The translations under genes were made by a program, and so were the position numbers. The notes beneath the pieces were generated by a model. It was not told the DNA's origin, searched no databases, and saw only the letters and a program-made list of their open reading frames with translations. Shown piece after piece: positions 14,028 through 62,705 of a stretch of 64,000 nucleotides of DNA. This DNA comes from Deltaproteobacteria bacterium IMCC39524 (GTDB lineage: Bacteria; Desulfobacterota; Desulfuromonadia; Desulfuromonadales; BM103), in assembly GCA_029667085.1 (NCBI GenBank), contig JARUHJ010000001.1, forward strand, positions 248,001 to 312,000. Direction: 5' to 3'. Within the stretch, counting starts at the first letter, position 1. The number at the start of each line of letters is the position of its first letter.

Positions 14028-14150
14028 GGGACGAAAACAGGCTTCTTGTTGATACAGGTATTTAGGAAGCTATTTGTTTTACAAAATCATGGCCACCAGG
14101 GTTCGATCCTTGGCGGCCATTTCTTATTGGTTAGAAGCCTCAGCGAAAAT
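14028..14150 (+). repeat. GGCCACC-hairpin repeat, copy A
   Basis: Matches the reverse complement of the 62575-62705 copy almost end to end: the GACGAAAA..GGCTTCTTGTTGATA block, TATTTAGGAAGCTATTTGTT, ACAAAATCATGGCC, then the hairpin at 14089-14120 (12-bp stem, loop GTTCGAT), then a T-rich tail. It lies in a 530-bp gene-free gap; the riboswitch of the next gene begins 144 bp later. Confidence 0.8.
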
Positions 14151-14293
14151 TTCTCACAAGTACTCTTAATGACACGGATATTTCAGTAAGTACTTGAAAA
14201 ATAGACGTATTATCTTTGTTAGGCATTGACAGGACAACTATGTCTGTGGCAGGTTAAACATAAGTTGCACGCCATAAACAAACCTTCGGGCTT

Positions 14294-14382
14294 GTCTGAA
14301 AAAGGCAAATCCATCGAAAGATGGAGACGCAAAATTACCGGTCTACAGGGCTTCGGTCCCAGGATGGCGGAATTACCAGATG
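14294..14382 (+). ncRNA. GEMM-I riboswitch aptamer (c-di-GMP-I class or its cGAMP variant)
   Basis: The GEMM-I core is present in order: AAGGCAAATCC, a P2 hairpin closed by a GAAA tetraloop (CCATC-GAAA-GATGG), GACGCAAAATTACCGG, a variable P3 hairpin (CAGGGCTTCGGTCCC), and the conserved 3' strand GGATGGCGGAATTACCAGA. By eye, the base aligned to G20 of the V. cholerae Vc2 aptamer is G, which would favour c-di-GMP, but this alignment is not decisive. A terminator-like hairpin follows 30 bases later. Confidence 0.85.
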
Positions 14383-14411
14383 CGCGAAAAAACTCTATCA
14401 CCCCTCTCTAC

Positions 14412-14433
14412 AGAACCTGATCGGTTCTTCTTT
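14412..14433 (+). terminator. Riboswitch expression-platform hairpin
   Basis: AGAACC (14412-14417) pairs with GGTTCT (14423-14428), followed by TCTTT. It lies between the GEMM-I aptamer and the chosen start at 14455, as a conditional terminator would. The T-run is short, so termination would be weak; sequestering the translation start is an alternative. Confidence 0.5.
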
Positions 14434-14454
14434 CCACATTCAATCCTCTGCCGC

Positions 14455-15279
14455 ATGGTGGTGCTGTTGGCTCTGGTTCTGCCCTGTTTGCTGTGGGGAA
14501 CGAATCTGCGGGCCGAGTCGATTACCGATTTGCCCTCTGAATTCGGTACAGTTGTCTACCAGACGCAAGGCAGTGCCCCCGCGCAATTGTTCATCATCGC
14601 CAACAGTCATCGCAGCATGATCAGCGGTGCCAACGGTGACGCCACACTGCAGGCACAGGTTCAGACCTTCCAGATTTGTGAATGGCTGATCCGTCGTCGG
14701 CCTGTTGCCATGTTGCTTCCTGAAGGATTTTTCGGTAACCGCCCCGCCACTAATCCGGCTGCAGGCCCCGACGAGTGGCTCGATAGCGCGACGCTGACAC
14801 GATGGTTGGCTGATACTTCGAGCTTCGTTAATGCTGAACTTCTGCTTCATCAACAATATGGCATCAACCTCAAGCAGGTTGAAGACCGTGTGCTTTATCA
14901 AAAGGTACGTGATGCCATCCTTACCAGTCAGGTCGACGACACCCAGCAGGGGTTGATCCTCGACGGTCAGATTGAATCTCTGCAGAAACGCCGTTCAGCC
15001 GCGATTCTGCAAAGAGCGAAGGCTCTATCGCAGTCTAACAGCCAGAACAGTGATGTGCCGCAGAGCTCTATTCTGACCATTGGCCTGGCCCATCTCTATG
15101 ACATTCTGGAAGTTATCGAATCAGACGAAATTCAAACCCCGGCTAATGACATAGCTGGAGTAAACCTTTCGTATGTTCCGGTATCGTCGACTTCTGACAA
15201 GCGTTCTGTCGGCATTACCGTCATCGTCCCTCAAAGCCTCCTCGAAAGCCTGCCTCTGGTATCTGACAATCGCACCTGA
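14455..15279 (+). CDS. Riboswitch-controlled secreted protein, TraB/ChaN-like fold (tentative)
   Basis: 274 residues from the ATG at 14455, which gives a clean Sec signal (MVVLLALVLPCLLWGTNLRA). An ATG 25 codons upstream lies in the riboswitch 3' end and is disfavoured. The mature part has LFIIANSHRSMISG early, VAMLLPEGFFG about 55 residues later and ILTIGLAHLYDILEVI near the end. This His..Glu..GxxH layout resembles TraB/GumN and ChaN/EreA-type proteins. The similarity is loose and the activity unknown. The upstream GEMM-I riboswitch indicates control by a cyclic dinucleotide, so a role in surface or biofilm behaviour is plausible. Confidence 0.6.
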   Translation: MVVLLALVLPCLLWGTNLRAESITDLPSEFGTVVYQTQGSAPAQLFIIANSHRSMISGANGDATLQAQVQTFQICEWLIRRRPVAMLLPEGFFGNRPATNPAAGPDEWLDSATLTRWLADTSSFVNAELLLHQQYGINLKQVEDRVLYQKVRDAILTSQVDDTQQGLILDGQIESLQKRRSAAILQRAKALSQSNSQNSDVPQSSILTIGLAHLYDILEVIESDEIQTPANDIAGVNLSYVPVSSTSDKRSVGITVIVPQSLLESLPLVSDNRT

Positions 15280-15552
15280 TTTGCGATTTGTATCTCCTGT
15301 TGAGCCGGGGTCCTTGCCGTACCAGAAAGCGTCTGCACCCTCACAGTTTGTTCCAAAACACTTCAAACTTAAAAATCCCTTTCTTGCAACTTTGTGCTAA
15401 TTGACACTGGTTTTACCTCTGATAATCCTTGTACGCAGGGCATAAGATCGAGCAAAAGTTGTTTTTACCAAAGCTCCAAGCTGTTGCCCTGGGCATGGGG
15501 CTCATTGCTTGTCATCTCTTAAATAGAGAGTTGACAAACTGAAGGGAGAAGA

Positions 15553-15999
15553 ATGATGAAACGAACTATCTACACCACAGCCATGGTCTCCATTGCGGGC
15601 CTGCTGCTTGCGGGTTTGGCTATGGGCAGCGGAATGGACGCAAAAGATGCCGGGAGTTCGGCTGTCGAGGGCCACATGGAAGGCACGGCCATGGAGGCGA
15701 CAACCCAAGAAATGGCTGCTCAACCCCTTAATGTGGATCAGGTTAGAGAGTTACAGAAGTTACTCAATGACCAGGGTTACATCGTCGGAGAACCTGACGG
15801 CATGATCGGGTCGAGTACCACCGAAGCGATCCGGCAGTTCCAGATCGATAACCAGCTGACCAGCAGCGGGACTCCTGATCCTGAAACGCTGCGGCTCCTG
15901 TCACCAGACGTCGAGAAGCAAGAGTTCTTCGGTCTTGCACCTGAATATGGTGAGCAGGAAGGGATGATGGAAGAGGCGCCCAAGAAGTTGGATTACTAA
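15553..15999 (+). CDS. Secreted peptidoglycan-binding (PGB_1) domain protein
   Basis: 148 residues. An N-terminal signal (about 1-25, TTAMVSIAGLLLAGLAMG) is followed by a Met/Ala/Glu-rich linker and one PG_binding_1 domain (VDQVRELQKLLNDQGYIVGE, then DGMIGSSTTEAIRQFQ). No catalytic domain is attached, so it would anchor to or sense the wall. GGGAGAAG precedes the double ATG; either may be used. Repeat copy B lies directly after the stop and probably acts as its terminator. The 273 bp upstream hold nothing recognisable. Confidence 0.82.
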   Translation: MMKRTIYTTAMVSIAGLLLAGLAMGSGMDAKDAGSSAVEGHMEGTAMEATTQEMAAQPLNVDQVRELQKLLNDQGYIVGEPDGMIGSSTTEAIRQFQIDNQLTSSGTPDPETLRLLSPDVEKQEFFGLAPEYGEQEGMMEEAPKKLDY

Positions 16000-16000
16000 A

Positions 16001-16115
16001 CTCAGCCATATCAGAGACATTTAGGAAGCTGATTAATAAACAAAGCTAAGGCCACCTGGAACAATTCTGGGTGGCCGTTTTCTTTTATGTCAGGATCAGC
16101 GAGGATATTGTCTGT
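16001..16115 (+). repeat. GGCCACC-hairpin repeat, copy B
   Basis: Shares CATTTAGGAAGCTGATTAAT and ACAAAGCTAAGGCC with the family consensus. The hairpin at 16050-16076 pairs GGCCACC with GGTGGCC, and the tail TTTTCTTTTATGTCAGGATCAG matches copies C and I. It begins 2 bp after the PGB_1 gene stop. The 5' arm (CACGACTTCTG) is missing or diverged. Confidence 0.75.
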
Positions 16116-16243
16116 TCTTTGAAGAGAATTACTGAAATTCAACAATCTGGAGACTTGACATTGTAAAGTTACCGTTTGGTTGTATTATTTAAAATTGGAA
16201 ATGTACAGTTTGAATTTAAACTCAATTGAAAAGGAGGAAGTTT

Positions 16244-16651
16244 ATGCTAAAGAAACTCATGCGTCCGGTAAGTCTTCTTTTGGTTGTTTCATTCTGTTTA
16301 CTTAACTTTAATGTCCCCAATGCACAGGCGAAGATGGTCGGTACGGATGCCATGATCGCAGAGCAGCAGGCATTAGACCAACAGGCTCAGGTTGCTGACT
16401 TCATGGCACGAGAAGATGTAAAGCAGATAATGACTGAGTATGGGGTTGATCCTGTCGAAGCCCAACAGAGGGTTGACAGCCTTTCGGATGAAGAATTAGC
16501 TAGCCTGGCTAGTTCCATAGATCAATTGCCTGCTGGTGCCGGTGGTGTTGGCGCAGTCGTCGGTGCGGTAGTATTAATCTTCCTGGTCTTACTTATTACT
16601 GACCTTGTCGGTTTAACACATGTTTTTCCTTTCGTTAACCACTCACGGTAA
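16244..16651 (+). CDS. PA2779-family (DUF6627) membrane protein
   Basis: 135 residues. An N-terminal signal (about 1-29, ending PNAQA) is followed by a helical region with many Gln, REDVKQIMTEYGVDPVEAQQRVDSLS, and one C-terminal membrane helix (GGVGAVVGAVVLIFLVLLITDLVGL). This layout and the neighbouring PA2778-type peptidase fit the PA2779 family, whose function is unknown. The start is the ATG at 16244 with AAGGAGG at 16231-16237; an upstream TTG frame start overlaps that ribosome site and is rejected. Confidence 0.8.
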   Translation: MLKKLMRPVSLLLVVSFCLLNFNVPNAQAKMVGTDAMIAEQQALDQQAQVADFMAREDVKQIMTEYGVDPVEAQQRVDSLSDEELASLASSIDQLPAGAGGVGAVVGAVVLIFLVLLITDLVGLTHVFPFVNHSR

Positions 16652-16664
16652 GTGTAAACAGGGT

Positions 16665-17627
16665 ATGCCTTTGAATCAGGTCGGCAATCGGTTGATTGCC
16701 GGCCTGTTGTTTTTGGCTCTGTGTAGTGTGCTTACAGGATGTAGCCTTACCCCGCCGGGTTACTTGTCCGAGCGTTCTGGAAGACCAACGAAGGCCATGG
16801 TTGAAGATGTGCCTTTTTTTGCTCAGGATGATTTGCAGTGCGGTCCGGCAGCTCTTGCGATGGTTTTAAACTGGAGCGGGGTTACTGTTAAGCCATCCGA
16901 GCTATCTTCCGAGGTCTATACTCCCGGTCTCAAAGGCAGCCTACAGAACTCCCTGATTGGATCAGCCCGCAGGCATGGTCGGGTTGCATACCCCATTGAA
17001 GGCATTGACGCACTGATAACCGAGATATCGGCCGGCCATCCAGTTATTGTTCTGGTCAATCTCGGTTTATCCTGGTATCCACAATGGCACTATGCCGTTG
17101 TCATTGGCTATGATCAAGAGAAGGAAGAGGTTCTGCTCCATTCAGGTCCTACGGCCAGGGAAGTCATTAGTTTTTGGACCTTCAATAATATCTGGAAGCG
17201 TAGTGACTACTGGGGGCTTTTGGTCCAACCTCCAACCCGACTACCAGCGATTGCCGAAGAAGATAAGTGGCTTAGTGCCGTCTCGGGGTTAGAGAAGGCA
17301 GGGCAGTGGCAGACTGCCGCAACCGGTTATATGACAGCTTTGGAAAGATGGAATAAAAGTTTCATCGCCTGGATGGGCCTTGGTAATAGCAAATACAATT
17401 TGCATGAATTCGACTCCTCTGCGAATGCTTTCTATCAAGCGATACAGCTTCAACCTGAAAATGGTTTAGCCTATAACAATTTAGCTTATGTCTTGGCGGA
17501 ACAGGGTAAACGGAATGAAGCCTTGAGCGCTGCACAGCGTGCTGTAGATCTTAGTGGCCCATTTCAAGATACATTTCGCCAAACATTAGATGAAATCGAG
17601 GGGATGAAAACGAAAAAAGAGGAATAG
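16665..17627 (+). CDS. PA2778-family C39-type cysteine peptidase lipoprotein with TPRs
   Basis: 320 residues. The lipobox VLTGC (C26) makes it a lipoprotein. A papain-like C39 domain follows, with catalytic C59 in DDLQCGPAALAM and H142 in PQWHYAVVIGYD, and a C-terminal TPR region (about 230-310, AYNNLAYVLAEQGKRNEAL). Start at 16665, 13 bp after the preceding stop; an upstream ATG at 16620 lies inside the previous gene. The pair with the PA2779-type gene is conserved in other Proteobacteria. It may cleave a secreted peptide or act as a bacteriocin-type leader peptidase, but the substrate is unknown. Confidence 0.85.
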   Translation: MPLNQVGNRLIAGLLFLALCSVLTGCSLTPPGYLSERSGRPTKAMVEDVPFFAQDDLQCGPAALAMVLNWSGVTVKPSELSSEVYTPGLKGSLQNSLIGSARRHGRVAYPIEGIDALITEISAGHPVIVLVNLGLSWYPQWHYAVVIGYDQEKEEVLLHSGPTAREVISFWTFNNIWKRSDYWGLLVQPPTRLPAIAEEDKWLSAVSGLEKAGQWQTAATGYMTALERWNKSFIAWMGLGNSKYNLHEFDSSANAFYQAIQLQPENGLAYNNLAYVLAEQGKRNEALSAAQRAVDLSGPFQDTFRQTLDEIEGMKTKKEE

Positions 17628-17661
17628 CAGAAAATCCATCTTAAACCTTGTAAAATAGAAA

Positions 17662-17690
17662 GGCCATCTGGAGATGATCCAAGTGGCCGT
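17662..17690 (+). terminator. Hairpin related to the GGCCACC family (weak copy F)
   Basis: GGCCATCTGG pairs imperfectly with CCAAGTGGCC around GATGAT, followed by GTTCTTAA. It lies 35 bp after the PA2778-type gene, in terminator position. Upstream TTGTAAAATAGAAAGGCC loosely resembles the ACAAAACTATGGCC of full copies; the distal arms are not recognisable. Confidence 0.55.
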
Positions 17691-17789
17691 TCTTAAGCTA
17701 AGAGCATAACTTCTGTTTGAGATAGCATAAGCCCAACTTTGCCAGCATAAGTTATCATCACAAGAGCACAGCATAAGGATGGTTCATTT

Positions 17790-18776
17790 ATGAAGGTCTC
17801 AACAGTGCGTTTGACGGTGACAATATTCGTAGTGATCGGCCTCCTTGGATTCCAGATTGCCTGCGATAGCGCAGAACAGAAGGTCGCTCCTCCTTCCGGA
17901 GTCTCCTCAGATCGCCCGTTTGAGCGCTTCGAGTTCGATTCTGGAGCGCAGCTTGAACAGCTCATTAATGACCTCAACTACACGCCGGAGACGTGGCAAG
18001 CGGGCATTCGTGAAGTGCCCAGACTATACATCACCAACATCCCCCCTCGCTGGCGTGACAAGACCTCCAAAGAGCTTGACGTGTTGACCAAGAAACGAGT
18101 ATTTTTCCGGCTTCTCGGGCCCCTGGTTTTGCACTCCAATGAACTCATTCAGGCCGACCGGGACCGTGTCCTGTTAATCATCAAAGCGCTACAAGGAGGT
18201 GATGAGGTCAGCTCCGAGGATCAGACCTTCTTGCGCGAGACAGCGGCTGCCTACAAAGTGATCGAGGGCGACGCTGATTTTGCTGATCGCGTATTACAAG
18301 ACAAGCTACTTCGTCGTGTCGACACATTACCACCGTCTCTAGTGCTAGCCCAGGCTGCAGAAGAGAGCGGCTGGGGCACCTCCCGTTTCGCAGCTGCGGG
18401 GAATGCATTGTTTGGTATGTGGACCTGGGATGATAAGGGCGTCACGCCCTTACAGCAGCGTTCTGAACTCGGAAACTACAAGATCGCCTCATATGATACA
18501 CCGCTGGAGTCAGTTGTCGCCTACATGCATAACTTAAACACTCACCAAGCCTATAAAGGGCTGCGGGCACGGCGAGCTGAGCTTCGTAAAACGGGAAAAA
18601 AAGTGACTGGATGGGAGCTTGCAAACACGCTAACTAAATACTCCGAACGTGGCCAGGCATATGTCGACTCACTTCACTCACTGATGAATGTGAATAAGCT
18701 TCAGCCAACGGATGATGCCTACCTCGGCGACGGGCCGACGATTCTTCTCATCCCTGTCGGGGAAGGTGCCAATTAA
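17790..18776 (+). CDS. Bax-like glucosaminidase-domain lipoprotein
   Basis: 328 residues. An N-terminal hydrophobic segment ends in QIAC (C25), a possible lipobox. The region after about residue 65 (WQAGIREVPRLYITNIPPRW) is typical of E. coli Bax. The glucosaminidase domain has LPPSLVLAQAAEESGWGTSR with the catalytic glutamate (AEESGWG), and later FRSYDTP-like ASYDTPLESVVAYMHNLNTH. It should cleave the glycan strands of peptidoglycan. It stands alone, with the nearest genes PA2778 upstream and a repeat copy downstream. Confidence 0.88.
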   Translation: MKVSTVRLTVTIFVVIGLLGFQIACDSAEQKVAPPSGVSSDRPFERFEFDSGAQLEQLINDLNYTPETWQAGIREVPRLYITNIPPRWRDKTSKELDVLTKKRVFFRLLGPLVLHSNELIQADRDRVLLIIKALQGGDEVSSEDQTFLRETAAAYKVIEGDADFADRVLQDKLLRRVDTLPPSLVLAQAAEESGWGTSRFAAAGNALFGMWTWDDKGVTPLQQRSELGNYKIASYDTPLESVVAYMHNLNTHQAYKGLRARRAELRKTGKKVTGWELANTLTKYSERGQAYVDSLHSLMNVNKLQPTDDAYLGDGPTILLIPVGEGAN

Positions 18777-18829
18777 GTTGCTTGCCTCTGGGGCCAGGCG
18801 TTGTGGCTGTAGAAAGACCCCAATCATAT

Positions 18830-18945
18830 AAATCACGACTTCTGGGAGGGAAATCGGCTTATTCTTGAGAGGTTAATACACAAAACTATGGCCACCAGGG
18901 CTCGATCCTTGGTGGCCTTTTATTGTTTATCAGGATCAGTAGTAA
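18830..18945 (+). repeat. GGCCACC-hairpin repeat, copy C
   Basis: Contains the 5' arm AAATCACGACTTCTGGGAG, the CGGCTTATTCTTGAGAG block, ACAAAACTATGGCC, the hairpin at 18889-18917 (GGCCACCAGG, loop GCTCGAT, CCTTGGTGGCC) and the tail TTTATTGTTTATCAGGATCAG. It sits 54 bp after the Bax-like gene. The rest of the 277-bp gap to the convergent PilZ gene holds nothing else recognisable. Confidence 0.8.
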
Positions 18946-19053
18946 TTCTGCTTTTGGCCCAATCCGTCTTAATACTTCAAAACGATGCGAGATAAATAGT
19001 AAAGCCCCAACCGGGGGTGGCTGGAGCTTGGTGGTAGAGCTTAAAGACTTTGA

Positions 19054-19563
19054 CTAAGACGGGGTAGACACAAAAGAGCAACCCATAACCTGATCTTTTT
19101 GCCAAACCGGTTTGACGACTTCCTTGGTGAGGGGAAATGGGATAGCCTCTACAGAGTAACCGAGGACTTTGAGTAGACTCTTCTCAGAACAGAGATCGAG
19201 TTCTTTGGGATGAATGTTCAGTTCGAGCCGAACCCCACCTTCGCTTATATCAATAATCTGCGCACTAAAAGTCTTTTTGGTGCCTAGCATTTGAAGCATG
19301 CAAGCACCTTCTTTGATTTTGTACCTTTCAAACTTTCGGGTCTTGTCGGTACTCATTTTCTTGTGCGTCCCAACGCGATAGCCATTGGGAGCAAGGTCCT
19401 CAGGGGCTTCTCTACAAAAATCAATACTGCATTGTAAGCGTCGACAAAGTGTATGCAAAGTCCCTTCACAATAACTTTCCACAAGCAAACGAGATTGTCT
19501 ATCGCTCGACTTGTATCGATAAGTTTTGTAATAGCTACAGTCTTTAGAATGTTCGCAGGACAT
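19054..19563 (-). CDS. Cys-rich N-terminal domain fused to PilZ (c-di-GMP receptor)
   Basis: 169 residues. The N-terminal 70 residues hold a cysteine array (MSCEHSKDC, then SYCEGTLHTLCRRLQCSIDFC) ending in DLAPNGYRVG, a module often seen ahead of signalling domains in Geobacter-type bacteria that may bind metal. The C-terminal PilZ domain has the RKFERY arginine motif and DISEGG, the c-di-GMP contacts. I start at 19563 because AAGAGGTG lies five bases upstream; 24 extra N-terminal codons are possible but lack a ribosome site. It probably transmits c-di-GMP levels to an unknown partner. Confidence 0.82.
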   Translation of the reverse strand: MSCEHSKDCSYYKTYRYKSSDRQSRLLVESYCEGTLHTLCRRLQCSIDFCREAPEDLAPNGYRVGTHKKMSTDKTRKFERYKIKEGACMLQMLGTKKTFSAQIIDISEGGVRLELNIHPKELDLCSEKSLLKVLGYSVEAIPFPLTKEVVKPVWQKDQVMGCSFVSTPS

Positions 19564-19812
19564 AACACCTCTTAAAATAAAATTAAGCTTTTGGAAATTT
19601 AAGCTATTCAAACGCCTTTGTGAAGTAAAAATCATTTAATTATCTATAGTTAACTCTCCAGGAGTGTATCCACTCCCTAGTCACTAAAAGCCAATAACAA
19701 GTTTCTCCATTTTTGAGAATGATAATCTAGACACGCCCCTGAGAAGTTTCGGAGAAGAAACCCTGCCTCGGTGCACATTAATGAAACACTCCTTGAACAC
19801 TCAAATTGTCAC

Positions 19813-20175
19813 TTAGCAGGCCAGAACCTTCTTCGTATTGTATATCAGGCTTGCTTGGTGGACGGGTTTAACAAGGTAGTCAATGGCACCGTGTCTCTTC
19901 GCCTCAACCAGTGACTTCAGGCGAGGACTGCCTGTGATGATTACAATTCTGCAATCTGGCTGAAGAACTTTGAGGCTCAGAATTGCTTCAATACCATTCT
20001 CAGTGCCAAATCCTATGTCCAGGAAAAGTAAATCAAAAGACTCTTGCTGCATTTGCTTGATACAAGAGGTTAATGAGTCTGCTGTTTCAACGTGATACCC
20101 CTCTCCTTGTAAAAACTCAGAGAAGGTGAATCGAATACATTCTTCGTCATCAGCAACCAGGATATTTTTTTTCAT
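19813..20175 (-). CDS. Single-domain response regulator (CheY-like)
   Basis: 120 residues consisting of one receiver domain: acidic DD10-E11, phospho-acceptor D53 in LLFLDIGFG, the threonine in IVIITGSPRL and the lysine in DYLVKPVHQ. There is no output domain, so it acts by phosphotransfer or protein contact. A near-perfect sigma-54 promoter (20237-20252) precedes it on the same strand. The Cys-rich PilZ gene follows 250 bp downstream in the same direction, perhaps a signalling pair. Confidence 0.9.
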   Translation of the reverse strand: MKKNILVADDEECIRFTFSEFLQGEGYHVETADSLTSCIKQMQQESFDLLFLDIGFGTENGIEAILSLKVLQPDCRIVIITGSPRLKSLVEAKRHGAIDYLVKPVHQASLIYNTKKVLAC

Positions 20176-20236
20176 TGATACTCACTCTTCAATTAGTCGG
20201 AAGTTCTATAGTTCGCGTTACAGGCAGAATAGATAG

Positions 20237-20252
20237 AGCAATGCTCGTGCCA
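20237..20252 (-). promoter_or_regulatory. Sigma-54 (-24/-12) promoter
   Basis: Read on the minus strand the site is TGGCACGAGCATTGCT, an exact match to TGGCACG-N4-TTGCW with GG and GC ten bases apart. Transcription would begin near 20226, about 50 bp before the receiver gene start at 20175. This predicts RpoN plus an enhancer-binding protein; no enhancer-binding protein is encoded in the window. Confidence 0.82.
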
Positions 20253-20404
20253 GTGAAAAAAGTTGCGCAGATGAGTGAGCGTGGATCTTTGAAAAAGGTA
20301 GTCTTACCGATGCTTTAACTGGTTCCCTGTTGATAAAATGTAAAATTGATTTTGAAATTCGTTGTGTGTCAGTAGTGTCTGTATGTCACAGATTGGGAAA
20401 GACC

Positions 20405-20455
20405 TTGGCACAGCTATGGCCACCGGGGTCCGATCCTTGGTGGCCTGTTGTGCTT
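20405..20455 (+). repeat. GGCCACC-hairpin repeat, truncated copy D
   Basis: ACAGCTATGGCCACCGGGGTCCGATCCTTGGTGGCC reproduces the hairpin and its left shoulder (stem 20418-20445) but no T-run follows and the distal arms are lost. It lies in the 535-bp gap between the divergent receiver gene and the 31-residue frame. No gene ends upstream on the plus strand, so it is not acting as a gene terminator. Confidence 0.65.
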
Positions 20456-20807: not shown

Positions 20808-20844
20808 AGAGCAGGGCATTGATTCTCATCCTCCCCACGGATGT

Positions 20845-20990
20845 CTCTCAGAAGTCACGACTTCTAAGACGAAATTCATCTTCTGATTTATAGAGTCATA
20901 TAGGAAGTTATTTAATCCTCAAAAATATGGCCGCCCTGGTAACAGGCGGCCTTTTTTATTTTCGGGTTTCCTTGAGATATAATTGCTGCC
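20845..20990 (+). repeat. GGCCACC-hairpin repeat, copy E, with strong terminator
   Basis: Starts with the perfect 7-bp dyad AGAAGTC-AC-GACTTCT (20850-20865), then the TCTTCTGATTTATAGAG block, ATATAGGAAGTTATTTAAT, AAAAATATGGCC and the hairpin GGCCGCCCTGGTAACAGGCGGCC (20929-20951) with a TTTTTT run. This copy has the most terminator-like hairpin and an intact 5' arm. It lies between the 31-residue frame and the cytochrome gene. Confidence 0.75.
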
Positions 20991-34768: not shown

Positions 34769-34783
34769 AAGAGTTTATGTTTG

Positions 34784-34900
34784 TAGTAGAAACACGGAAT
34801 AAATGGGAATAAGCTAAATAAATGGGAAGTTTTTGCAAGCAATAATATATTCTGAATAAAAAGCTTATACGAAGGCCCTCCAATTGGAGGGCCTTTTTTT
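34784..34900 (+). terminator. TAGAAACACGG-repeat with intrinsic terminator, copy 1
   Basis: A block TAGAAACACGGAATAAATG (34787-34805) is followed about 65 bp later by the stem AAGGCCCTCCAA/TTGGAGGGCCTT (34872-34895) and T7. The same two parts recur in order at 40604-40720, so this is a repeated 3'-end module. Here it terminates the DUF882 gene. Confidence 0.75.
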
Positions 34901-40530: not shown

Positions 40531-40603
40531 TGGGAAAATAGGGTAGGTCGCTGAAATCGTAAGATTTCCATTTCCCAACTATTCGAGGTCCTACAATTTG
40601 GTT

Positions 40604-40720
40604 GTAGAAACACGGAATAAATGTGATTACGCCACATATATAAGAACACTCCCTATGCGATAATTTAGTGAGAATAATCGATACTTAAAAAGCCCTCCAA
40701 ACTGGAGAGCTTTTTTTGTG
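40604..40720 (+). terminator. TAGAAACACGG-repeat with intrinsic terminator, copy 2
   Basis: GTAGAAACACGGAATAAATG (about 40605-40624) is followed by the stem AAAGCCCTCCA/TGGAGAGCTTT (40688-40712) and TTTTT. It matches the 34784-34900 module in both parts but the segment between differs. It lies 250 bp after the TIGR00341 gene. Confidence 0.7.
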
Positions 40721-51148: not shown

Positions 51149-51296
51149 CATTTCAACACTTTTGAGATGAAAACCGTTTTTTTCTTGTTAGAGTTAAGCG
51201 TGAAGCCATAGAACCTACAAACACCTTAATGCTGTCCGTGAGTTAATGCTAAGTATGATGTGTTTCTCGATTCCCTTTCAAAAGAGGTCAATAATC

Positions 51297-53835: not shown

Positions 53836-53902
53836 ATTTTGGTTCAAGGTTTTTTACCTGTTTAACTGGTTAAGCTTTTCTGTGTTTTCTTCGGTAGTCT
53901 CA

Positions 53903-53935
53903 GCCCAACAGATTATTAATCTGTTGGGCTGTTTG
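53903..53935 (+). repeat. 32-bp palindrome, left copy (also a terminator)
   Basis: AGCCCAACAGATTATTAATCTGTTGGGCT is a perfect hairpin (12-bp arms) followed by GTTTGTTT. An inverted copy lies at 54558-54590. It is placed to terminate the barrel gene. Confidence 0.85.
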
Positions 53936-54557: not shown

Positions 54558-54590
54558 ACAGCCCAACAGATTAATAATCTGTTGGGCTGC
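54558..54590 (-). repeat. 32-bp palindrome, right copy (also a terminator for katG)
   Basis: Inverted copy of the 53903-53935 palindrome; read on the minus strand the two match over about 34 bp including the GTTT after the stem. It lies 60 bp past the katG stop and would end katG transcription. Confidence 0.85.
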
Positions 54591-54648: not shown

Positions 54649-56856
<2,208 letters not shown>

Positions 56857-57140
56857 TCATTTATCGTCAGTGTCTTCATGCAGTCTGATAAGTGTCTTCT
56901 GACGGCTCTTTTTATCGAATGTCTCGACAGGGTCTAATATCAATGTGAGACTTGTTGATTCGTTAAAAGGAAACCCTTCGTCCTATATCTTTCAGAGTAT
57001 TCGTAATAATTGTTGCAGAAGCTGGAATTAACGAATAACCTTAGCCGCATTATCATGTTCTATGATATCGCGGTTTTTATCTCGCGCAATTCTACTAACA
57101 GCATTTACTCTCATGCCTGTCTGCCCAGTATGGAAAAAGA

Positions 57141-57407
57141 ATGAGTAAACAGAAGAAACTAAAAAAGAAATCCTCTGGCAATAAGCCGCAAGCTCAAAGT
57201 CGACCAACTCCCCAAAAAAAAGACAGTGTTTTTACGGAAGCGTGGGAGAATATGAGTGAGGACTTTGGCAAGTTCATGCCTGCTTTCCTGCAAAAAGGAC
57301 TCAAGGGCGGTAAACGCAAAGTCTGGGTTATGGTTGCAATGACTTTTGTCGAGCTTGTGGTTCTTGGTGTGGTTGGTAAATTTATTTATGATTGGTTTGT
57401 TGAGTAA
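57141..57407 (+). CDS. Small basic single-TM protein
   Basis: 88 residues. A very basic N-terminus (MSKQKKLKKKSSGNKPQAQS) is followed by a short amphipathic region (VFTEAWENMSEDFGKFMPAFL) and one C-terminal membrane helix (VWVMVAMTFVELVVLGVVGKF). No family is recognised. The upstream ATGGAAAAAGA stretch gives only a weak ribosome site. It is probably an inner-membrane protein with its N-terminus in the cytoplasm. Confidence 0.6.
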   Translation: MSKQKKLKKKSSGNKPQAQSRPTPQKKDSVFTEAWENMSEDFGKFMPAFLQKGLKGGKRKVWVMVAMTFVELVVLGVVGKFIYDWFVE

Positions 57408-57535
57408 TGGCGCGTGGAACGCGGTATGAGGGTCGTGGTTTAAATCAAAAAGCAAGCAACCAGAGAGCGCATGAATATTAATTGCCCATGAAGGTGTTTG
57501 CCGCCTTCCTCCTACCGATCTTTTAAGGAGTTTTT

Positions 57536-57781
57536 ATGAAAAACGATGATGCTGGAATGCCGATCGGCATAACGCTCGAACCTGGGACTTACTATCGGTG
57601 TAAATGTGGAAAGTCTCAGAACCAGCCATTTTGTGATGAATCTCACAGTGGCAGCGAAAGTTCTCCCGTGGAATTTAAAGTCAAGCGTCGTCAGAAAGTG
57701 TTTCTCTGTGGTTGCGGCCTGACCGGTGATGAGCCTTATTGTGATGGCAGCTGCGGTGTCTCACTGCCCGGGCGAGAGTAA
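57536..57781 (+). CDS. Double CDGSH-type iron-sulfur protein with altered second site
   Basis: 81 residues. The first site is C22-x-C24-x8-C33-x3-H37 (RCKCGKSQNQPFCDESH), the usual 3Cys-1His [2Fe-2S] pattern of CDGSH/miniNEET proteins. The second is C58-x-C60-x8-C69-x3-C73 (LCGCGLTGDEPYCDGSC), with Cys where His is expected. The protein is cytoplasmic. AAGGAG precedes the ATG. A His-to-Cys ligand change should shift redox potential and cluster stability. The gene stands alone. Confidence 0.87.
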   Translation: MKNDDAGMPIGITLEPGTYYRCKCGKSQNQPFCDESHSGSESSPVEFKVKRRQKVFLCGCGLTGDEPYCDGSCGVSLPGRE

Positions 57782-57983
57782 TCCGCATCAATATCGTTCC
57801 GTTTCTTGATATCTTGCCTCTATCTGGAGTGAATTGCTAGCTCACTCCAGGAGGCATGATCCCCCTTTCATCTCCTGCGGTTTTTTCCTTTCGCGAATAG
57901 CTGTCCCTTCTCAAACCTGCACCCTGAAATTTAAATAGTATAATGTCACCGTAACGAAACGATTTGTACGGGCAGGGTGGGGT

Positions 57984-58652
57984 ATGAAAATTGGTCTGAT
58001 TAGTGATGTTCACGCAACGTTGCAGCCCTTACGGGAGGCTCTTGCCCTCTTCGAGGATGAAGGTGTTGAGACGATCTTGTGTGCTGGGGATGTTGCCGGT
58101 TATGGAAAACAACTGGACGAGACTGTTCAGATTTTGATCGACAGTCGCTGTCGCGTTGTTATGGGCAACCATGATCTCTGGTGGCTTGAACGTTCCGGGT
58201 TTGACCATGAAGGTGTTGCTGCCTCGTATCTAGGCAACCTGCCTGCAGTGATTGAGTTCAAGGCCGCAGGAAAGATGATTTACATGGTCCACGCCAGCCC
58301 GCCGGACTCTTTGATGGATGGCATCAAGCTGTTGGATGAAAAGGCCGCTCTTATCCAGCAGGAAAGACACTCCTGGTCATGTTGCCTCAGAAATTTCCAC
58401 TGTGACGTCCTTGTTGTCGGTCATACGCATCAAGTCTTTGCGGAACAGCTCGGCAACCCTCTGGTCATCAACCCGGGCAGTACATTGTTCAATCACACTT
58501 GTGCGATTTTGACTTTACCTGAGATGAGGGTTCAGGTTTTCCCCTTAAGTGGTAAAAACCCGGTCTTGAGCTGGAACTGGGGGATGGAGGCTGCTGCATG
58601 GGTTAAGGCTAATCCCGTAGCAAACGCAAAGGCCCGAAAACGCAAAGCCTGA
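57984..58652 (+). CDS. Calcineurin-like metallophosphoesterase (YfcE/MJ0936 type)
   Basis: 222 residues. The di-metal motifs are all present: GLISDVHA (D8, H10), LCAGDVAGYG (D36), MGNHDLWW (N62-H63), MVHASPP and VVGHTHQVF. The GHTH and the preceding VLVVGHTHQ match the Cys/YfcE-like phosphodiesterase branch. It probably cleaves phosphodiesters in the cytoplasm; the substrate is open. GGGCAGGGTGGGG precedes the start. The C-terminus is basic (ANAKARKRKA). Confidence 0.88.
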   Translation: MKIGLISDVHATLQPLREALALFEDEGVETILCAGDVAGYGKQLDETVQILIDSRCRVVMGNHDLWWLERSGFDHEGVAASYLGNLPAVIEFKAAGKMIYMVHASPPDSLMDGIKLLDEKAALIQQERHSWSCCLRNFHCDVLVVGHTHQVFAEQLGNPLVINPGSTLFNHTCAILTLPEMRVQVFPLSGKNPVLSWNWGMEAAAWVKANPVANAKARKRKA

Positions 58653-58799
58653 TGCTTATGTTCGTGACCTTTGCCAGTAACGAAAAGGTCCTCTCAGCGT
58701 CTTCGCGTCTCTAGTGTTAAATAGCTTCCCCTTAAATGAAAGGCTCTGTTAGCGTTCTGTGTTGATATTTGGTGCATCAAGTATCCATAAGGTGAAGGT

Positions 58800-59492
58800 T
58801 TATTTTGACCTCTGCCGAATGAATGCCATTTTTGGGTTGGCCAACTTTTCAGGTGAACCAACCCAGGCATAAGCAAGAAGAGAAGGTTCAAGATCACTGG
58901 TCGTTATCCGATGAGGGTGCTCAGGAGGATTGAGAATCAGAGAACCAGGAGCATAGACTCCAACATCATTTTCTGCAATGGCGCCGCTCAAGCAGAAATA
59001 TGATTCACTTATCCCTTGATGATTATGTGTGGGATAGGTTGTCCCCGGCGCAAACAACACCAACCCAAGAATCAGTTCTTCCGATACGATTGGACCTTTG
59101 GGGCTCATAAATTCAGAGAAAGCATACTTATCGCTCAATCCAGGTGGCATCTTTTCGTAACCGAACTCCCAATAGAGTTGGTCGCGAATACGTTCAATCA
59201 CCCGGGCAAGTGGGGCCGTAGAATAAGACAGCCCGCTATCGAGCGCCCTTGATAAATGTGCACAGACAGGTTTTTCCGATGCTTGAATCTGTTTCATAGG
59301 CGGGTCATTGTTCAGCAGCCGCGACAATCGATGACGAACTTCTTTTTGGTGTGAACGAATATGCGAGCTGCCACCGGCAGAGCTGAAACGGTAGAGATTG
59401 TAGACTTCGCGTAGCAGATATTGCCAGTCAGGGAAGTGTCTCAACCGGTAGGGGTAGGACGTGTCATCCAAGCAGTCAACCATTGCATCCAC
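58800..59492 (-). CDS. DMSP-lyase-like cupin (DddL/DddQ/DddW superfamily)
   Basis: 230 residues. An N-terminal helical part (about 1-115) precedes a cupin barrel with motif 1 THNHQGISESYFCLSG (H156, H158, E163, Y165) and motif 2 GSLILNPPEHPHRITT (H192, H194). This arrangement with the N-terminal helices is that of the PF16867-type DMSP lyases, which split dimethylsulfoniopropionate into acrylate and dimethyl sulfide. Some cupins with this layout may act on other substrates. No DMSP transporter or acrylate gene is nearby. The start is the ATG at 59492. Confidence 0.65.
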   Translation of the reverse strand: MDAMVDCLDDTSYPYRLRHFPDWQYLLREVYNLYRFSSAGGSSHIRSHQKEVRHRLSRLLNNDPPMKQIQASEKPVCAHLSRALDSGLSYSTAPLARVIERIRDQLYWEFGYEKMPPGLSDKYAFSEFMSPKGPIVSEELILGLVLFAPGTTYPTHNHQGISESYFCLSGAIAENDVGVYAPGSLILNPPEHPHRITTSDLEPSLLAYAWVGSPEKLANPKMAFIRQRSK

Positions 59493-59650
59493 TTTCTCGA
59501 TTATGGTGTAAACGGTTTAGCTTAAAAACGTGCACTACGTAATATACACTATTTTTATAAACCAGCCAGATCCTGCGGTCAAACTCCAGTCATTCTGCGG
59601 GCTCCCTGTTTCGGAGTAAATTCGTTTCAGAAGTACTTACCTATAAGAAA

Positions 59651-59690
59651 ATGGTCACCCAGAGTTGCTCCAAGTGGCCATCATTTTGTC
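59651..59690 (-). repeat. GGCCACC-hairpin repeat, weak copy G
   Basis: Read on minus: ACAAAATGATGGCCACTTGG..CTGGGTGACCAT, the family hairpin with mismatches, preceded by GACGACAAAATGATGG. It lies between the DMSP-lyase-like gene start and the repeat-protein stop. On the minus strand it is followed by TTTTCTTATAG, which resembles the family tail. Confidence 0.5.
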
Positions 59691-59714
59691 GTCTTGACTG
59701 GAGACCACATAAGA

Positions 59715-59750
59715 GAAAGCCCCCGGATCCAATGTTGAGGGCTTTCGATT
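59715..59750 (-). terminator. Terminator of the secreted repeat-protein gene
   Basis: GAAAGCCC (59715-59722) and GGGCTTTC (59739-59746) form the stem; a similar GAAAGCCTTC/GAAGGCTTTC hairpin occurs at 63820-63851. Read on minus it lies about 20 bp past the stop of the SEDDRY-repeat gene. Confidence 0.65.
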
Positions 59751-59765
59751 TATATCGTTGGGCAT

Positions 59766-60341
59766 TCATTCCCAAAACTGGTCATTTCCTCTGATCCGGT
59801 CATTTCCTCTGATCCGGTCATTTCCTCTGATCCGGTCATTTCCTCTATACCGGTCATTTTCTCTGAACCGGTCATCTTCTCTGAACCGGTCATCTTCTCT
59901 GAACCGGTCATCTTCTCTGAACCGGTCATCTTCTCTGAACCGGTCATTTTCTCTGTATCGATCATCTTTTCTGAACCGGTCATTTTCTCTGTATCGTTCA
60001 TTTCCTCTGAACTGGTCATCTTCTCTGTATCGATCATCTTCTCTGTATCGATCATCTTCACTGTATCGATCATCTTCACTGTATCGATCATCGTCTCTGT
60101 ATCGATCATCGTCTCTGTATCGATCATCTTCACTGTATCGATCATCTTCACTGTATCGATCATCTTCACTGTATCGATCATCTTCACTGTATCGATCATC
60201 TTCACTGTATCGATCATCTTCACTAATCCGTCCATGATTGTAATTTTCATCATCGTAGGATTTAGTGCGATAATCATCAGCAAAGACTACTTGAAATAAT
60301 CCCAACAGAAAGCAAGCAACAAGAATATAGATGTTCTTCAT
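59766..60341 (-). CDS. Secreted low-complexity protein with about 25 hexapeptide repeats (SEDDRY type)
   Basis: 191 residues from the ATG at 60341, which has GGGAGAG four bases upstream. A signal peptide (MKNIYILVACFLLGLFQVVFA) is followed by a short linker (DDYRTKSYDDENYNHGR) and then about 25 six-residue units grading from SEDDRY and RDDDRY to REDDRF, RENDRF and RGNDRI. The product is almost wholly Asp/Glu/Arg/Tyr or Phe and should be disordered. Because the DNA unit is 18 bp, other frames on both strands also stay open; only this one has a signal peptide and ribosome site. No family is known to me. Confidence 0.7.
   Translation of the reverse strand: MKNIYILVACFLLGLFQVVFADDYRTKSYDDENYNHGRISEDDRYSEDDRYSEDDRYSEDDRYSEDDRYSEDDRYRDDDRYRDDDRYSEDDRYSEDDRYREDDRYREDDQFRGNERYRENDRFRKDDRYRENDRFREDDRFREDDRFREDDRFREDDRFRENDRYRGNDRIRGNDRIRGNDRIRGNDQFWE
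59772..60228. repeat. 18-bp tandem repeat array
   Basis: About 25 head-to-tail units of 18 bp, plus-strand form TCTTCACTGTATCGATCA, diverging stepwise to TCTCTGATCCGGTCATTT. It encodes the hexapeptide repeats of the secreted protein on the minus strand. Neighbouring units are identical in blocks, which indicates recent expansion. Confidence 0.92.
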
Positions 60342-60609
60342 TTGTCTCTCCCATCTCTTTGTTTCATAAGCCATAATTTGTTGAAGATTATCACAACTTA
60401 AACAACTCAAATATATTTAGCTCTGTTAGCGTTCCGACGAAGCTAATAGATAACATATGTTTTTTTTGAATTTAGTTAACTACATAAGGTGTGGAAGGCT
60501 GAGATCCCAAGAAATCATCCTCCAGAATTTTGAGCTCTGATAATGGAGTCATCGTGCCAGTTTTTAGGTTGCCTGAAATTCAAGAATTGCATAGACCGGG
60601 ATATAGGAA

Positions 60610-60843
60610 TTATGGTTTACATTTCTTGCATGGGCGATAGCCGATCTCGATAGCATCCTCACGAGTCTCGAAGATCTCTACACAGCTTTCACAGTTAAAG
60701 TCCCGGCAATCTGCATTATGGAAGGTTTTGCTTTTAACGTCGCCGTGGTATGACTCAGCAGCTACAGCAAAGCTGACAAATAGTAGAGCGAAGATAACGG
60801 CAAAAACACAAATTTGGTGCAAATAATGGCAACTTTTGTTCAT
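60610..60843 (-). CDS. Secreted Ada-type Cys4 metal-binding protein
   Basis: 77 residues from the ATG at 60843, preceded by CTGGGGGGAG. A signal peptide (about 1-28, ending VAVA-like SFAVAAES) leads to a compact domain YHGDVKSKTFHNADCRDFNCESC..RPCKKCKP. FHNADC, EDAIEIGYRPCKKC match the Ada zinc-binding fold (FHxxxC, GYRPCKxC), which also occurs in secreted nucleases and adaptor proteins. Here it is the whole protein. Function unknown. Confidence 0.75.
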   Translation of the reverse strand: MNKSCHYLHQICVFAVIFALLFVSFAVAAESYHGDVKSKTFHNADCRDFNCESCVEIFETREDAIEIGYRPCKKCKP

Positions 60844-60997
60844 GATTTCTCCCCCCAGGAGGTCAAAGAAAATCACACAAAATAAGTTTTTTCCAATTTT
60901 ACCTGATAATTAGTTGAGGTCAAAGATGGGGGGCTAAGAAGTTGTTACGAAAAAGTCAGACTGATCAAGATAAGGCAATGTTGCCAGCGCCCTCAAT

Positions 60998-61145
60998 ACC
61001 TTGACAAGAATAAAAGGCTACCCGTTTCCAGGTGGCCGTAGTTTTATGGTTTATAGATCTTTTTAAATACCACTAGCAAATTGAATTCGCGACTATCAAT
61101 AAGAAGGCTATTTGCATCTCAGAAGTCGTGACTTGAAAGAAAAAG
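60998..61145 (-). repeat. GGCCACC-hairpin repeat, copy H
   Basis: Read on minus: AAGTCACGACTTCTGAGATG, AGCCTTCTTATTGATAG, then about 45 diverged bases, then the hairpin ACGGCCACCTGG..GGGTAGCC (61014-61040) and TTTTATTCTTGTCA. It begins about 35 bp past the stop of the minus-strand lipoprotein gene, in terminator position. It occupies most of the 338-bp gap. Confidence 0.75.
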
Positions 61146-61181
61146 CTGCTTCAGCCTAAGGGGTGAAGGTGGGCAAAGCCT

Positions 61182-62036
61182 TTACTTGGACTGATTGTAA
61201 TGAATCAAAGTGTCGGGGCCAAAGGAGAGAGATCCTATAATGATTTCGTAGTCAGCAAGGTTTTGCGCGAAAGTCGATTCGTCGGATGATAGTGATATTG
61301 ATGTGATACACGTATCATCTTCACCACAATTGCTAAAGAAAACTCTCTGAATCTCTTTCACAGCTAAATCATTAACTGGTGGTGTGCCTGGGGCATTCAC
61401 ATACGCCGCTCTTCCACCGGCCCAGAGTCCCTTGTTCTTGAGCCTTTTATAAGTTGATGCGTTTATATTCAGGACATTGCAAAAGTTGTTGCAGTTTTTA
61501 ATATCGATCGGGTCATAGTCTACATCAATGATCATTTCGTATCTTGGGTCGTTTAGCTTTGTGTTGGTTTGGTCGGCCTCATATTCGTAACTTTTGTCGT
61601 GAAAATATTCATAGACCGAATTACTTGATGATCCACGAAGTTTCGCATTAAGGTATTTAGACTTCACGGAATCATAAAAACTAAGGAAAAGAAGTTTTTT
61701 ATAATAATCGTCTGTTTCCATAAAAGTTCTGTCGGTCGAGACAAGGATCATTCCCCCTGTTCTATTTATGAAAACCCCTTTAATTTTTGAAATGTTATAT
61801 ACCGAAGAGGACTCAGATATTGATTGTGGAATTTCATCTATCTCGTGCAAACCGAGAGGAACTTTAAAAGAAAATTCATTTTCAGGGTCTATGTAATGCC
61901 TGCTCGTGACAATAGGCTGAGCAACCGGAGCACATGCACAGAGGATAAACAGAAAAATCAAGAAGAAATATAGATTGTTGACCAACACAAAGCCAACATA
62001 AGCACTAGTATTGTCCTGCATTTTGATTCTTTCCAT
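61182..62036 (-). CDS. Uncharacterised low-GC lipoprotein
   Basis: 284 residues. The N-terminus has a membrane segment ending LCACAP, a lipobox-like site (about C33-C35). The mature part is beta-rich, with paired cysteines NCNNFCN (about 185) and NCGEDDTC (about 237-244). FSFKVPLGLHEIDEIP near residue 55 resembles the start of domains that read peptide-bound surface lipoproteins, but I recognise no family. Codon use is AT-rich compared with the rest of the window, suggesting transfer. The start could also be the ATG at 62021 (MQDNTS). Confidence 0.65.
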   Translation of the reverse strand: MERIKMQDNTSAYVGFVLVNNLYFFLIFLFILCACAPVAQPIVTSRHYIDPENEFSFKVPLGLHEIDEIPQSISESSSVYNISKIKGVFINRTGGMILVSTDRTFMETDDYYKKLLFLSFYDSVKSKYLNAKLRGSSSNSVYEYFHDKSYEYEADQTNTKLNDPRYEMIIDVDYDPIDIKNCNNFCNVLNINASTYKRLKNKGLWAGGRAAYVNAPGTPPVNDLAVKEIQRVFFSNCGEDDTCITSISLSSDESTFAQNLADYEIIIGSLSFGPDTLIHYNQSK

Positions 62037-62159
62037 CCCCCATGGAAACCATCAAATATGATGTAAAAACTTTATCCCCCCAATAGATAAAGTCAAACGA
62101 TAGCTTTTTATTTGCCTTCGTACATCGATTTGATTGTTCAAGATTGACCGTAACGTTTA

Positions 62160-62285
62160 ATTCTCACTAACCTGACAAAAAGAAAATTGTCACTCGGAAT
62201 CGATCCAGGTGGCCATTACTTTGTTATCTTAATTTTAGCTATCAACAAGAAGCCGTTTTTAATCTCAGAAGTCGTGATTTAATAG
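62160..62285 (-). repeat. GGCCACC-hairpin repeat, copy I
   Basis: Read on minus: AAATCACGACTTCTGAGATT, AAAAACGGCTTCTTGTTGATAG, CTAAAATTAAGATAACAAAG, hairpin ATGGCCACCTGGATCGATTC..GTGAC (62187-62215), tail AATTTTCTTTTTGTCAGG. It starts 8 bp past the stop of the zinc-ribbon gene and fills the gap before the lipoprotein gene. Confidence 0.8.
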
Positions 62286-62292
62286 AATAAAT

Positions 62293-62466
62293 CTACGGGA
62301 TCTTTGGCCCATCAATCGTGACGATATAGTCTCTGTTGCATGATCGGCATGTAGCTATGACGAAATTTTTGAGACGATAATCGGAACCTACAAAATAGTT
62401 CAGAGATATGTCATTTTGGTGTTTGCAGTTTTCACAAGTTGAAGTTACCGATCCGACATCTAACAT
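62293..62466 (-). CDS. 57-residue zinc-ribbon-like protein
   Basis: From the ATG at 62466 (AAGGAGAAG upstream) the frame gives 57 residues with two CxxC knuckles, CENC and CRSC, 28 residues apart in a beta-rich context (NDISLNYFVGSDYRLKNFVIATCRSC). This is a rubredoxin-like zinc ribbon. A 17-codon N-terminal extension is open but lacks a ribosome site. No signal peptide; probably a cytoplasmic nucleic-acid- or protein-binding module. Confidence 0.68.
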   Translation of the reverse strand: MLDVGSVTSTCENCKHQNDISLNYFVGSDYRLKNFVIATCRSCNRDYIVTIDGPKIP

Positions 62467-62574
62467 GTTTCTTCTCCTTTTGAGAGTACGATCTGACAGT
62501 AGCAAATAGGTGCTCAAAAAAACCTCACAAATGGCTGATTGTTAAGGAGAAATAATAGTTTTTTAATTTAATGT

Positions 62575-62705
62575 ACTAACACCTACTGACAATCATGGCC
62601 ACCAAGGATCGAACCCTGGTGGCCATGATTTTGTGGACTATTTAGTTTCCTGAATACCTCTATCAATAAGAGCCGTTTTTCGTCTCCGAAGTTGTGATTT
62701 ATTGC
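62575..62705 (-). repeat. GGCCACC-hairpin repeat, copy J
   Basis: Read on minus: AAATCACAACTTCGGAGACG, AAAAACGGCTCTTATTGATA, GAGGTATTCAGGAAACTA, ACAAAATCATGGCC, then the near-perfect palindrome AATCATGGCCACCA..TGGTGGCCATGATT (62591-62630). It lies between two divergent gene starts (zinc-ribbon on minus, methyltransferase-like on plus), where no gene needs a terminator. Confidence 0.82.

Follow-up and report, generated by a model that had tools for sequence, protein, structure and literature searches.

Chromosomal integrons and clusters of attC sites lacking integron integrases (CALINs) are long arrays of mostly single-gene cassettes whose site is conserved within a lineage; the cassettes are common to strains, and arrays without a recombinase exist (PMC8618304). 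In the res sites of Tn3/gamma-delta and Sin, the crossover site is cut with a 2-nt stagger and is accompanied by accessory sites (PMC9943657, PMC2428073). For Tn3-derived miniature elements and TIME-COMPs, a segment between direct res sites is deletable by TnpR, and the authors speculate that a circle consisting of a miniature element and a gene entered an existing copy (PMC13367494). The present analysis concerns a dispersed intergenic element in a stretch of 64,000 nucleotides from Deltaproteobacteria bacterium IMCC39524 (assembly GCA_029667085.1, contig JARUHJ010000001.1, positions 248,001 to 312,000, forward strand; the window). The element is probably the res-type site of a resolvase-driven, integron-like cassette system.

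The array layout, the lineage-conserved sites and the cassettes common to strains are like those of chromosomal integrons and CALINs (PMC8618304). Integrons, on the other hand, use a tyrosine integrase, an attI site and attC sites acting as folded single strands, whereas the core described here looks like a double-strand, serine-type site. Similar to Tn3/gamma-delta and Sin, the enzyme belongs to the same family over its full length and the site adjoins the gene, and the res lengths of 114 and 86 bp compare with about 110 bp here (PMC9943657, PMC2428073). The task of those res sites is to resolve dimers of plasmids or cointegrates of transposons, whereas up to 30 sites occur here on one 50-kb contig; the terminator-like hairpin built into the site, the gene lying head-on to the site and the lack of a Tn3 transposase among our findings are further differences. 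In the pdif modules of Acinetobacter, genes likewise lie between site-specific recombination sites and are thought to be mobile as modules; by description, pdif uses Xer tyrosine recombinases, in contrast to the serine-type core here (PMC7399989). Tn3-derived miniature elements and TIME-COMPs rely on a Tn3-family transposase and on terminal repeats and stand in pairs around a gene, whereas long arrays are found here (PMC13367494). No description of serine-recombinase cassette arrays was recognised in the open-access literature, judged by titles and the starts of abstracts.

Anatomy, arrays and distribution of the element

The edge-conservation, symmetry and pair-breakpoint analyses used copies with a full left end. 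Conservation sets in sharply about 12 bp ahead of the core, which is an inverted repeat, TCTTATAAGTC-AC-GACTTCTGAGA (site I). With a 2-bp centre the arms match at a mean of 7.04 of 11 positions, against 1.8-4.3 at seven other spacings, and 149 of 156 copies have AC there. Such half-sites, inverted about two fixed central base pairs, are the sequence pattern of a resolvase-type crossover site. An 11-6-11 core of the tyrosine-recombinase (dif-like) kind was considered and rejected: the symmetry test favours the 2-bp centre, and of the 30 PF00589 matches compared, from eight array genomes, only XerC and XerD are widely shared.

A second inverted repeat, CTTATTGATA-GAGG-TATTCAGTAAG (site II), lies 3' of the core and is by its sequence a candidate accessory site. 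Measured from its ATTCAG, the hairpin is 31 bp away in 151 of 208 copies and 20 bp away in 39 of 208, and the two spacings are a helical turn apart. The hairpin, GGCCACC...GGTGGCC, keeps its pairing through two-sided changes; at two inner pairs these are A-T to T-A in 18 of 185 cells and G-C to A-T in 38 of 176. With A's on its 5' side and T's on its 3' side, the hairpin may act as a two-way terminator. A promoter-like motif, TTGATM-16..19-TWWAWT, is found in 91 of 208 copies. The tail TTTGTCAGGATCAG, at first taken to end every copy, is not general: conservation drops 10-16 bp past the hairpin, and the sequence beyond is a leader common to many, not all, downstream genes, which in many copies ends in the ribosome-binding-site-like AGGAGGAT and in the others differs.

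Two functions proposed earlier can be judged from this anatomy. A mobile terminator agrees with the terminator-like hairpin, but the element is more than a terminator, as it also contains the AC-centred repeat and forms co-oriented arrays. An RNA family is not supported, as no copy reaches the gathering score of any Rfam family; the AC-centred inverted repeat that makes up the conserved left part is more readily taken for a protein-binding site. Besides the main type there is a second, compact type of site (TCACCATTTATAAAACACGAAA with a hairpin), which resembles a form seen in other families, at C11 26062, C12 7574, C3end 15498 and window 63870 (C numbers denote contigs of the same genome).

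Common descent of the copies, rather than chance resemblance, is borne out by a search with one of them (copy J, 62590..62705): it gave 46 matches in its own genome, many lying in clusters and some being short palindrome hits, with a best E of 1.6e-27 besides itself; 40 of 116 candidates were scored. Twenty regions of the own genome were fetched. The stretches with hits amount to 332,463 bases, the window included, and yielded 119 profile hits, of which 102 reach at least 35 bits; the dispersal claimed from eight copies stands. Because most of these stretches were picked for matches to copy J, the copy densities are not genome averages. At this threshold, which also applies to the orientation and tally counts, the C11 stretch carries 30 copies in 50.5 kb, the end of C3 13, C12 12, C13 10 and the window 7; lone copies also occur, one each in the C10 and C1 stretches. 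Several contigs end within arrays, so that one large array may have been split by the assembly.

Neighbouring copies in own and foreign sequences share their orientation in 166 of 171 cases, with a median gap of 1233 bp; some of the foreign loci in this count overlap or stem from near-identical contigs. Among 75 own intervals of up to 5 kb, 37 hold exactly one open reading frame of at least 100 aa, 23 hold more and 15 none, and in the 60 own intervals with a frame the longest runs with the site direction in 47 and against it in 13. The layout is that of an integron-like, single-orientation array of mostly single-gene cassettes, which the genes follow less strictly than the sites. Pfam matches among 110 array frames of at least 115 aa, some of which are surely spurious, include 7 response regulators, 4 glyoxalases, 4 histidine-kinase ATPase domains, 3 resolvases and many singletons. 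The defence families PifA, QatA, PDC-S20 and SduA each have a single match among these 110 cassette frames of the own genome. The arrays, the cassettes shared between genomes and the adjacent recombinase lay beyond what the eight copies in view could show.

A 1385-bp insertion-sequence-like unit with ends GAGCCTTTTGCAAAAG is present in two copies (L036:9208-10592, and L036:19568-20000 with L037:1-952) that are 99.6% identical. Both lie within elements near TTATTGA, one of them at the orientation switch of the C11 array, where a gene sits inside the unit. The unit may target these sites.

In an order-level search, the main-type core was found in 8 of 136 genomes: four from the window's genus, which have 49, 41, 40 and 23 matches, and four others with a single match apiece; large arrays matching the main-type pattern were seen, among these 136 genomes, in the window's genus only. 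When the core pattern was relaxed, 33 matches turned up in 26 of the 136 genomes (reversed control, 2), and none in the own genome. A pattern scan of named genomes returned 57 stretches, of which 52 are labelled Desulfuromonadales or Deltaproteobacteria, and outside the 136, two loci of a metagenome-assembled genome named Desulfofustis carry 8 copies. The element was not found in IMG/VR with the exact pattern, nor in plasmids and phages by blastn with copy J. Array pieces also occur in metagenome-assembled genomes of unrelated names: L105 and L107 (JAQYVS Desulfofustis), L078 and L117 (SDWK Shewanella) and L090 (CAJQPF Flavobacteriales). L117 at least looks like a binning error, as it is 94-99% identical to a Desulfuromonadales contig (L116); the other pieces could reflect real transfer.

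Linked serine recombinase and shared cassettes

The three resolvases among the 110 array frames were identified by the Pfam family Resolvase. A 190-aa recombinase is intact on contigs C13 and C2 and fits the small serine recombinase layout of an N-terminal catalytic and a C-terminal HTH domain; it matches PF00239 with E 3.1e-37, while HTH_23 reaches just 21.2 bits, below the cut-off. Over its full length, with about 180 residues matched, the protein is related to a DNA invertase of solved structure (4m6f, E 1.1e-26), which we take to be Gin, and to gamma-delta resolvase (2e-26). The 3' end of its gene points head-on against the hairpin end of the element.

An element scoring at least 69 bits lies beside 8 of 10 distinct recombinase genes of at least 78% identity; of the other two, the gene in genome G014 has the hairpin part only (22 bits) and the broken gene in G011 lacks a main-type element. 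Beside distinct homologues of at most 50% identity, an adjacent element was found in 0 of 15 loci, which are short and whose divergent sites the profile would miss. Among the genomes of the window's genus, six have sites, and five of these have the close gene; none of the five site-free genomes has it. At the level of the class, the gene is found at E <= 1e-40 in 31 of 277 genomes, and a GC hairpin follows it within 110 bp in 24 of 30 homologue loci, where shuffles expect 0.34. An ...AATCACC... core is visible by eye at several other homologue loci. In the complete genome G062, the compact site past the gene recurs 2-3 kb away; one G062 copy has five matches in that genome including itself, and the copy at the gene is not among them at the threshold used. 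In G041, a second copy of the gene is broken, and the site beside it recurs about 10 kb off and, less clearly, 14 kb off; G088, G112 and G125 show similar but weaker repeats.

Shared cassettes are apparent from an all-against-all comparison of own and other genomes, in which stretches of 94-99% identity run from copy to copy in different neighbourhoods. Examples are C12:18147-20255 and L094 (99.0%), C13:16308-17023 and L100 (97.5%), and C3end:13059-13599 and L066 (94.7%). In the seven strong pairs that have the upstream cassette in common but differ in the downstream one, the identity of the left half-site averages 0.73, against 0.55 in random pairs. At C3end 13493 and L066 4839 (98% over 300 bp), the sequences agree throughout as far as the AC centre and diverge at the base that follows; at C13 13430 and L082 6236 (98%), the difference begins at the seventh base past the AC centre.

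A filled and an unfilled state of one locus were also found. Near 63870 of the window, on the minus strand, the flank ...GGGAGTCTTTCCTAATTATC|ACC... gives way to a compact site, after which come the remnant of a hairpin and the other flank. In the congener G016, the matching flank ...GGGAGTCTTTCTTATTTATC| leads into a cassette of about 700 bp, and a complete site of the main type then precedes the same other flank; the cassette gene encodes 221 aa and is methyltransferase-like by reading of its sequence. The difference between the two states begins at the AC centre. For copy J, no site was found in the congener G013, where homology breaks off at window 62716, close to the site's outer edge; since the other neighbour gene in G013 differs, this does not prove an insertion.

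Integron features were sought as well. The attC core motifs R'' and R' are RYYYAAC and GTTRRRY, and paired R''/R' motifs were found in 0 of 176 sites in either orientation, with 1 in shuffles per orientation. None of the nine PF00589 proteins of the own genome exceeds the integron-integrase cut-off, the best, XerD, reaching 149 bits against 265. Based on these comparisons, the system would lie outside the integrons in both integrase and attC site; it has the enzyme type and the crossover-site pattern of a resolvase with its res site, together with a candidate accessory site, but used in arrays. Eight array genomes gave 48 PF00589 matches, 30 of them with loci that were compared; XerC and XerD orthologues are common to seven of the genomes, the eighth having relatives of only about 40%, and beyond XerC/XerD one own integrase has an 87% relative in one genome. 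At L060 and L063 (C5:198973-200439), a 194-aa tyrosine recombinase consisting of the catalytic domain only stands beside a divergent one of 481 aa, and no element was found there.

Copies and neighbouring features in the window

The main-type window copies were scored with a profile built from own-genome copies. The eight copies of the original prediction are all present and related (25.7-118.6 bits), and three weaker ones score as well. The window copies look partly decayed, and the dense arrays are found on other contigs of this genome.

Copy A (14028..14128, plus strand, 118.6 bits) has a decayed site I, a site II-like repeat and the hairpin at 14091-14118. It is followed on the plus strand by a gene for 299 aa without a Pfam match (14380..15279), immediately 5' of which lies a c-di-GMP-I riboswitch (14294-14380, plus strand, 80 bits), and by a gene with the peptidoglycan-binding domain PF01471 (15553..15999). 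Copy B (16013..16095, plus, 64.9 bits, model 58-159) is a right part only, with the end of site II and the hairpin and without site I. Two overlapping plus-strand genes (16226..17627), for DUF6627 and a peptidase C39-like protein with TPR, separate it from copy F (17651..17690, plus), a weak hairpin remnant of 13.2 bits that was absent from the first list; as copy F is a near-palindrome, the profile reports it on the minus strand, and the span of the weak hit is given as 17634-17690. A glucosaminidase gene (PF01832, 17790..18776, plus) comes next.

Copy C (18824..18930, plus, 109.9 bits) consists of site I, TCATATAAATC-AC-GACTTCTGGGA, with AC at 18835-18836, a shortened site II and the hairpin. 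From this copy onward, 18873-20452, which includes a PilZ-domain gene and a response-regulator gene (19054..20175, minus), is matched on contig C14 by a relative of 91% identity. Copy D (20410..20449, plus, 25.7 bits, model 87-126) is a hairpin only. Copy E (20846..20960, plus, 71.2 bits) has site I, TCTCAGAAGTC-AC-GACTTCTAAGA, with AC at 20857-20858, site II and the hairpin. A weak match to the left part, from site I to site II, at 51149..51205 (plus, 13.9 bits, E 0.0043, model 17-73) is probably a decayed copy; the homologous stretch of L114 stops about 100 bp short of a full copy.

The remaining copies are on the minus strand. Copy G (59631..59689, 24.7 bits), likewise absent from the first list, is a hairpin part. 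Copy H (60998..61140, 74.6 bits) has site I (AC 61129-61128), a mid-element insertion and the hairpin, and a minus-strand gene for 284 aa without a Pfam match (61182..62036) lies between it and copy I (62165..62286, 66.2 bits), which comprises site I (AC 62275-62274), the left half of site II, a shortened spacer and the hairpin. Copy J (115.3 bits) has site I (AC 62695-62694), site II and the hairpin at 62597-62624, on the minus strand. Copy K (63741..63879) is a compact site of the second type (AC 63867-63866) with its own hairpin, followed by a main-type hairpin remnant.

Other repeats and matches in the window were also recorded. The palindrome CAGCCCAACAGATTATTAATCTGTTGGGCTG occurs twice (53901-53931 and 54559-54589), the copies being 97% alike and 658 bp apart; the pair possibly represents terminators or the ends of a small mobile unit. 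An 18-bp tandem repeat array at 59686-60271 lies inside open frames of both strands. The 80-nt stretches 34780-34859 and 40598-40677 are 71% alike, and this repeat looks unrelated to the element. A match to the Ruegeria Cis8_sRNA family at 6297-6424 (plus, 60.8 bits against a gathering score of 58) lies antisense in a 513-aa open reading frame and is probably a chance or coding match.

Competing explanations and implications

Based on the results presented above, the complete element would serve a small serine recombinase of the resolvase/invertase type as its recombination site. From left to right, it would comprise site I, with two 11-bp inverted half-sites around AC, accessory site II and a two-way terminator, often with the leader and its ribosome-binding-site-like end on the 3' side. 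Directly repeated sites split the DNA into cassettes, often of one gene each. The recombinase would bind two sites and bring them together, cleavage of both at AC would be followed by rejoining, and a cassette consisting of a site, the following gene and the next left half-site would leave as a circle; more rarely, a circle would enter an existing site. The terminator would block read-through between neighbouring cassettes, and the recombinase gene itself is carried within some of the units, head-on against the hairpin.

Several observations weigh against this mechanism. The strong upstream pairs are few, at seven, one of them nearly a duplicate and two shifted in register, one by 1 base and the other by 38; four of the seven agree in the centre and three do not. 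The right half-site has 12-13 of 13 bases in common in 7 of 22 strong downstream pairs and at most 10 in 15, the random mean being 9.7, and several of the poorly sharing pairs have genes that are 98-99% identical; a joint transfer of gene and right half-site is thus a poor rule. A changepoint fit placed the common optimum of six upstream pairs at -7, where individual pairs range from -7 to +54, and that of 16 downstream pairs at +31, with a range of -6 to +37. This implies that cassettes change partners in the left part of the element, with AC not singled out by the fit; the spread weighs against a pure site-I mechanism, and gene conversion between sites could explain it. Just one filled and unfilled locus was found, and its sites are partly decayed. 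Among the own recombinase copies, two are intact, two are broken (C11) and one is a 69% fragment (C2). At 25 homologue loci outside the ten close genes, in which the G011 gene is counted again, a main-type profile hit lies beside the gene in four (L217, 75 bits; L235, 56; L219, 33; L220, 19), and most relatives outside the genus are unmatched. Genome G017, which appears to be that of the array-bearing isolate IMCC39146, has 41 pattern matches without a close recombinase, which leaves its sites either orphaned or served by another enzyme. Finally, serine resolvases mostly delete between direct sites, so that arrays would be expected to shrink.

Part of this could also be explained if the element were a dispersed terminator-like repeat, between whose copies ordinary homologous recombination shuffles genes, the resolvase unit being a passenger. 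The spread of the downstream-side breakpoints over the first 37 bp of the element, with fits not centred on AC, would then be natural, the pair-keeping changes of the hairpin fit a terminator, and the many sites of G017 lack the close recombinase. A terminator, on the other hand, has no need of an AC-centred palindrome on its left, nor does such a repeat account for the co-orientation of nearly all neighbouring copies, for a site-specific recombinase as the attached enzyme at eight of the ten close genes, or for the break at the AC centre between the filled and unfilled states. We consider this explanation unlikely, although it is the most serious of the competitors.

Spread by a transposase, as a non-autonomous RAYT (REP-associated tyrosine transposase) repeat or a Tn3-derived miniature element with the res site as a by-product, appears quite improbable. 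Single copies do occur in the C10 and C1 stretches, Tn3-derived miniature elements can carry res sites (PMC13367494), and part of the copies show a short TTCTTA/TAAGAA complement between the left edge and the leader. The RAYT variant had been proposed from the window itself, but the genome yielded one Y1_Tnp gene (C4:213892), whose 3.3-kb locus is free of the element, and the copies instead form co-oriented arrays between genes; for the Tn3 variant, the transposase PF01526 was found in 0 of 8 genomes searched. That the elements are unusual attC sites of a tyrosine integrase, in a classical integron or CALIN, is very hard to maintain: the layout, the conserved sites and the shared cassettes do match chromosomal integrons (PMC8618304), but the R''/R' pairs are missing from all the sites scanned, no own tyrosine recombinase reaches the IntI cut-off, those with relatives across the array genomes are essentially XerC and XerD, and a fold-back is seen by eye in the right part of the site only.

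The res-type sites of a resolvase-driven cassette system remain the probable explanation. The broader proposal is a new class of gene-capture system, in which a serine recombinase builds and shuffles arrays and exchanges them between species, with the terminator and leader built in and the recombinase travelling along; the integron principle would then have been invented a second time, independently, in a system that is old in the bacterial order and has expanded to large arrays in one genus. We regard the case for this proposal as evenly balanced. Its age in the order is suggested by the recurrence of the recombinase and related sites in several families of that order.

Integrons are the best-known bacterial platform for gathering genes as cassettes. 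If the proposal is true, a second platform with an unrelated enzyme would exist, and cassette arrays would have evolved more than once. It would also raise the question of how a deletion-prone resolvase lets arrays grow, and the system could give a compact recombination tool. For other lineages, the search image would be an AC-centred palindrome with a terminator beside a small serine recombinase.

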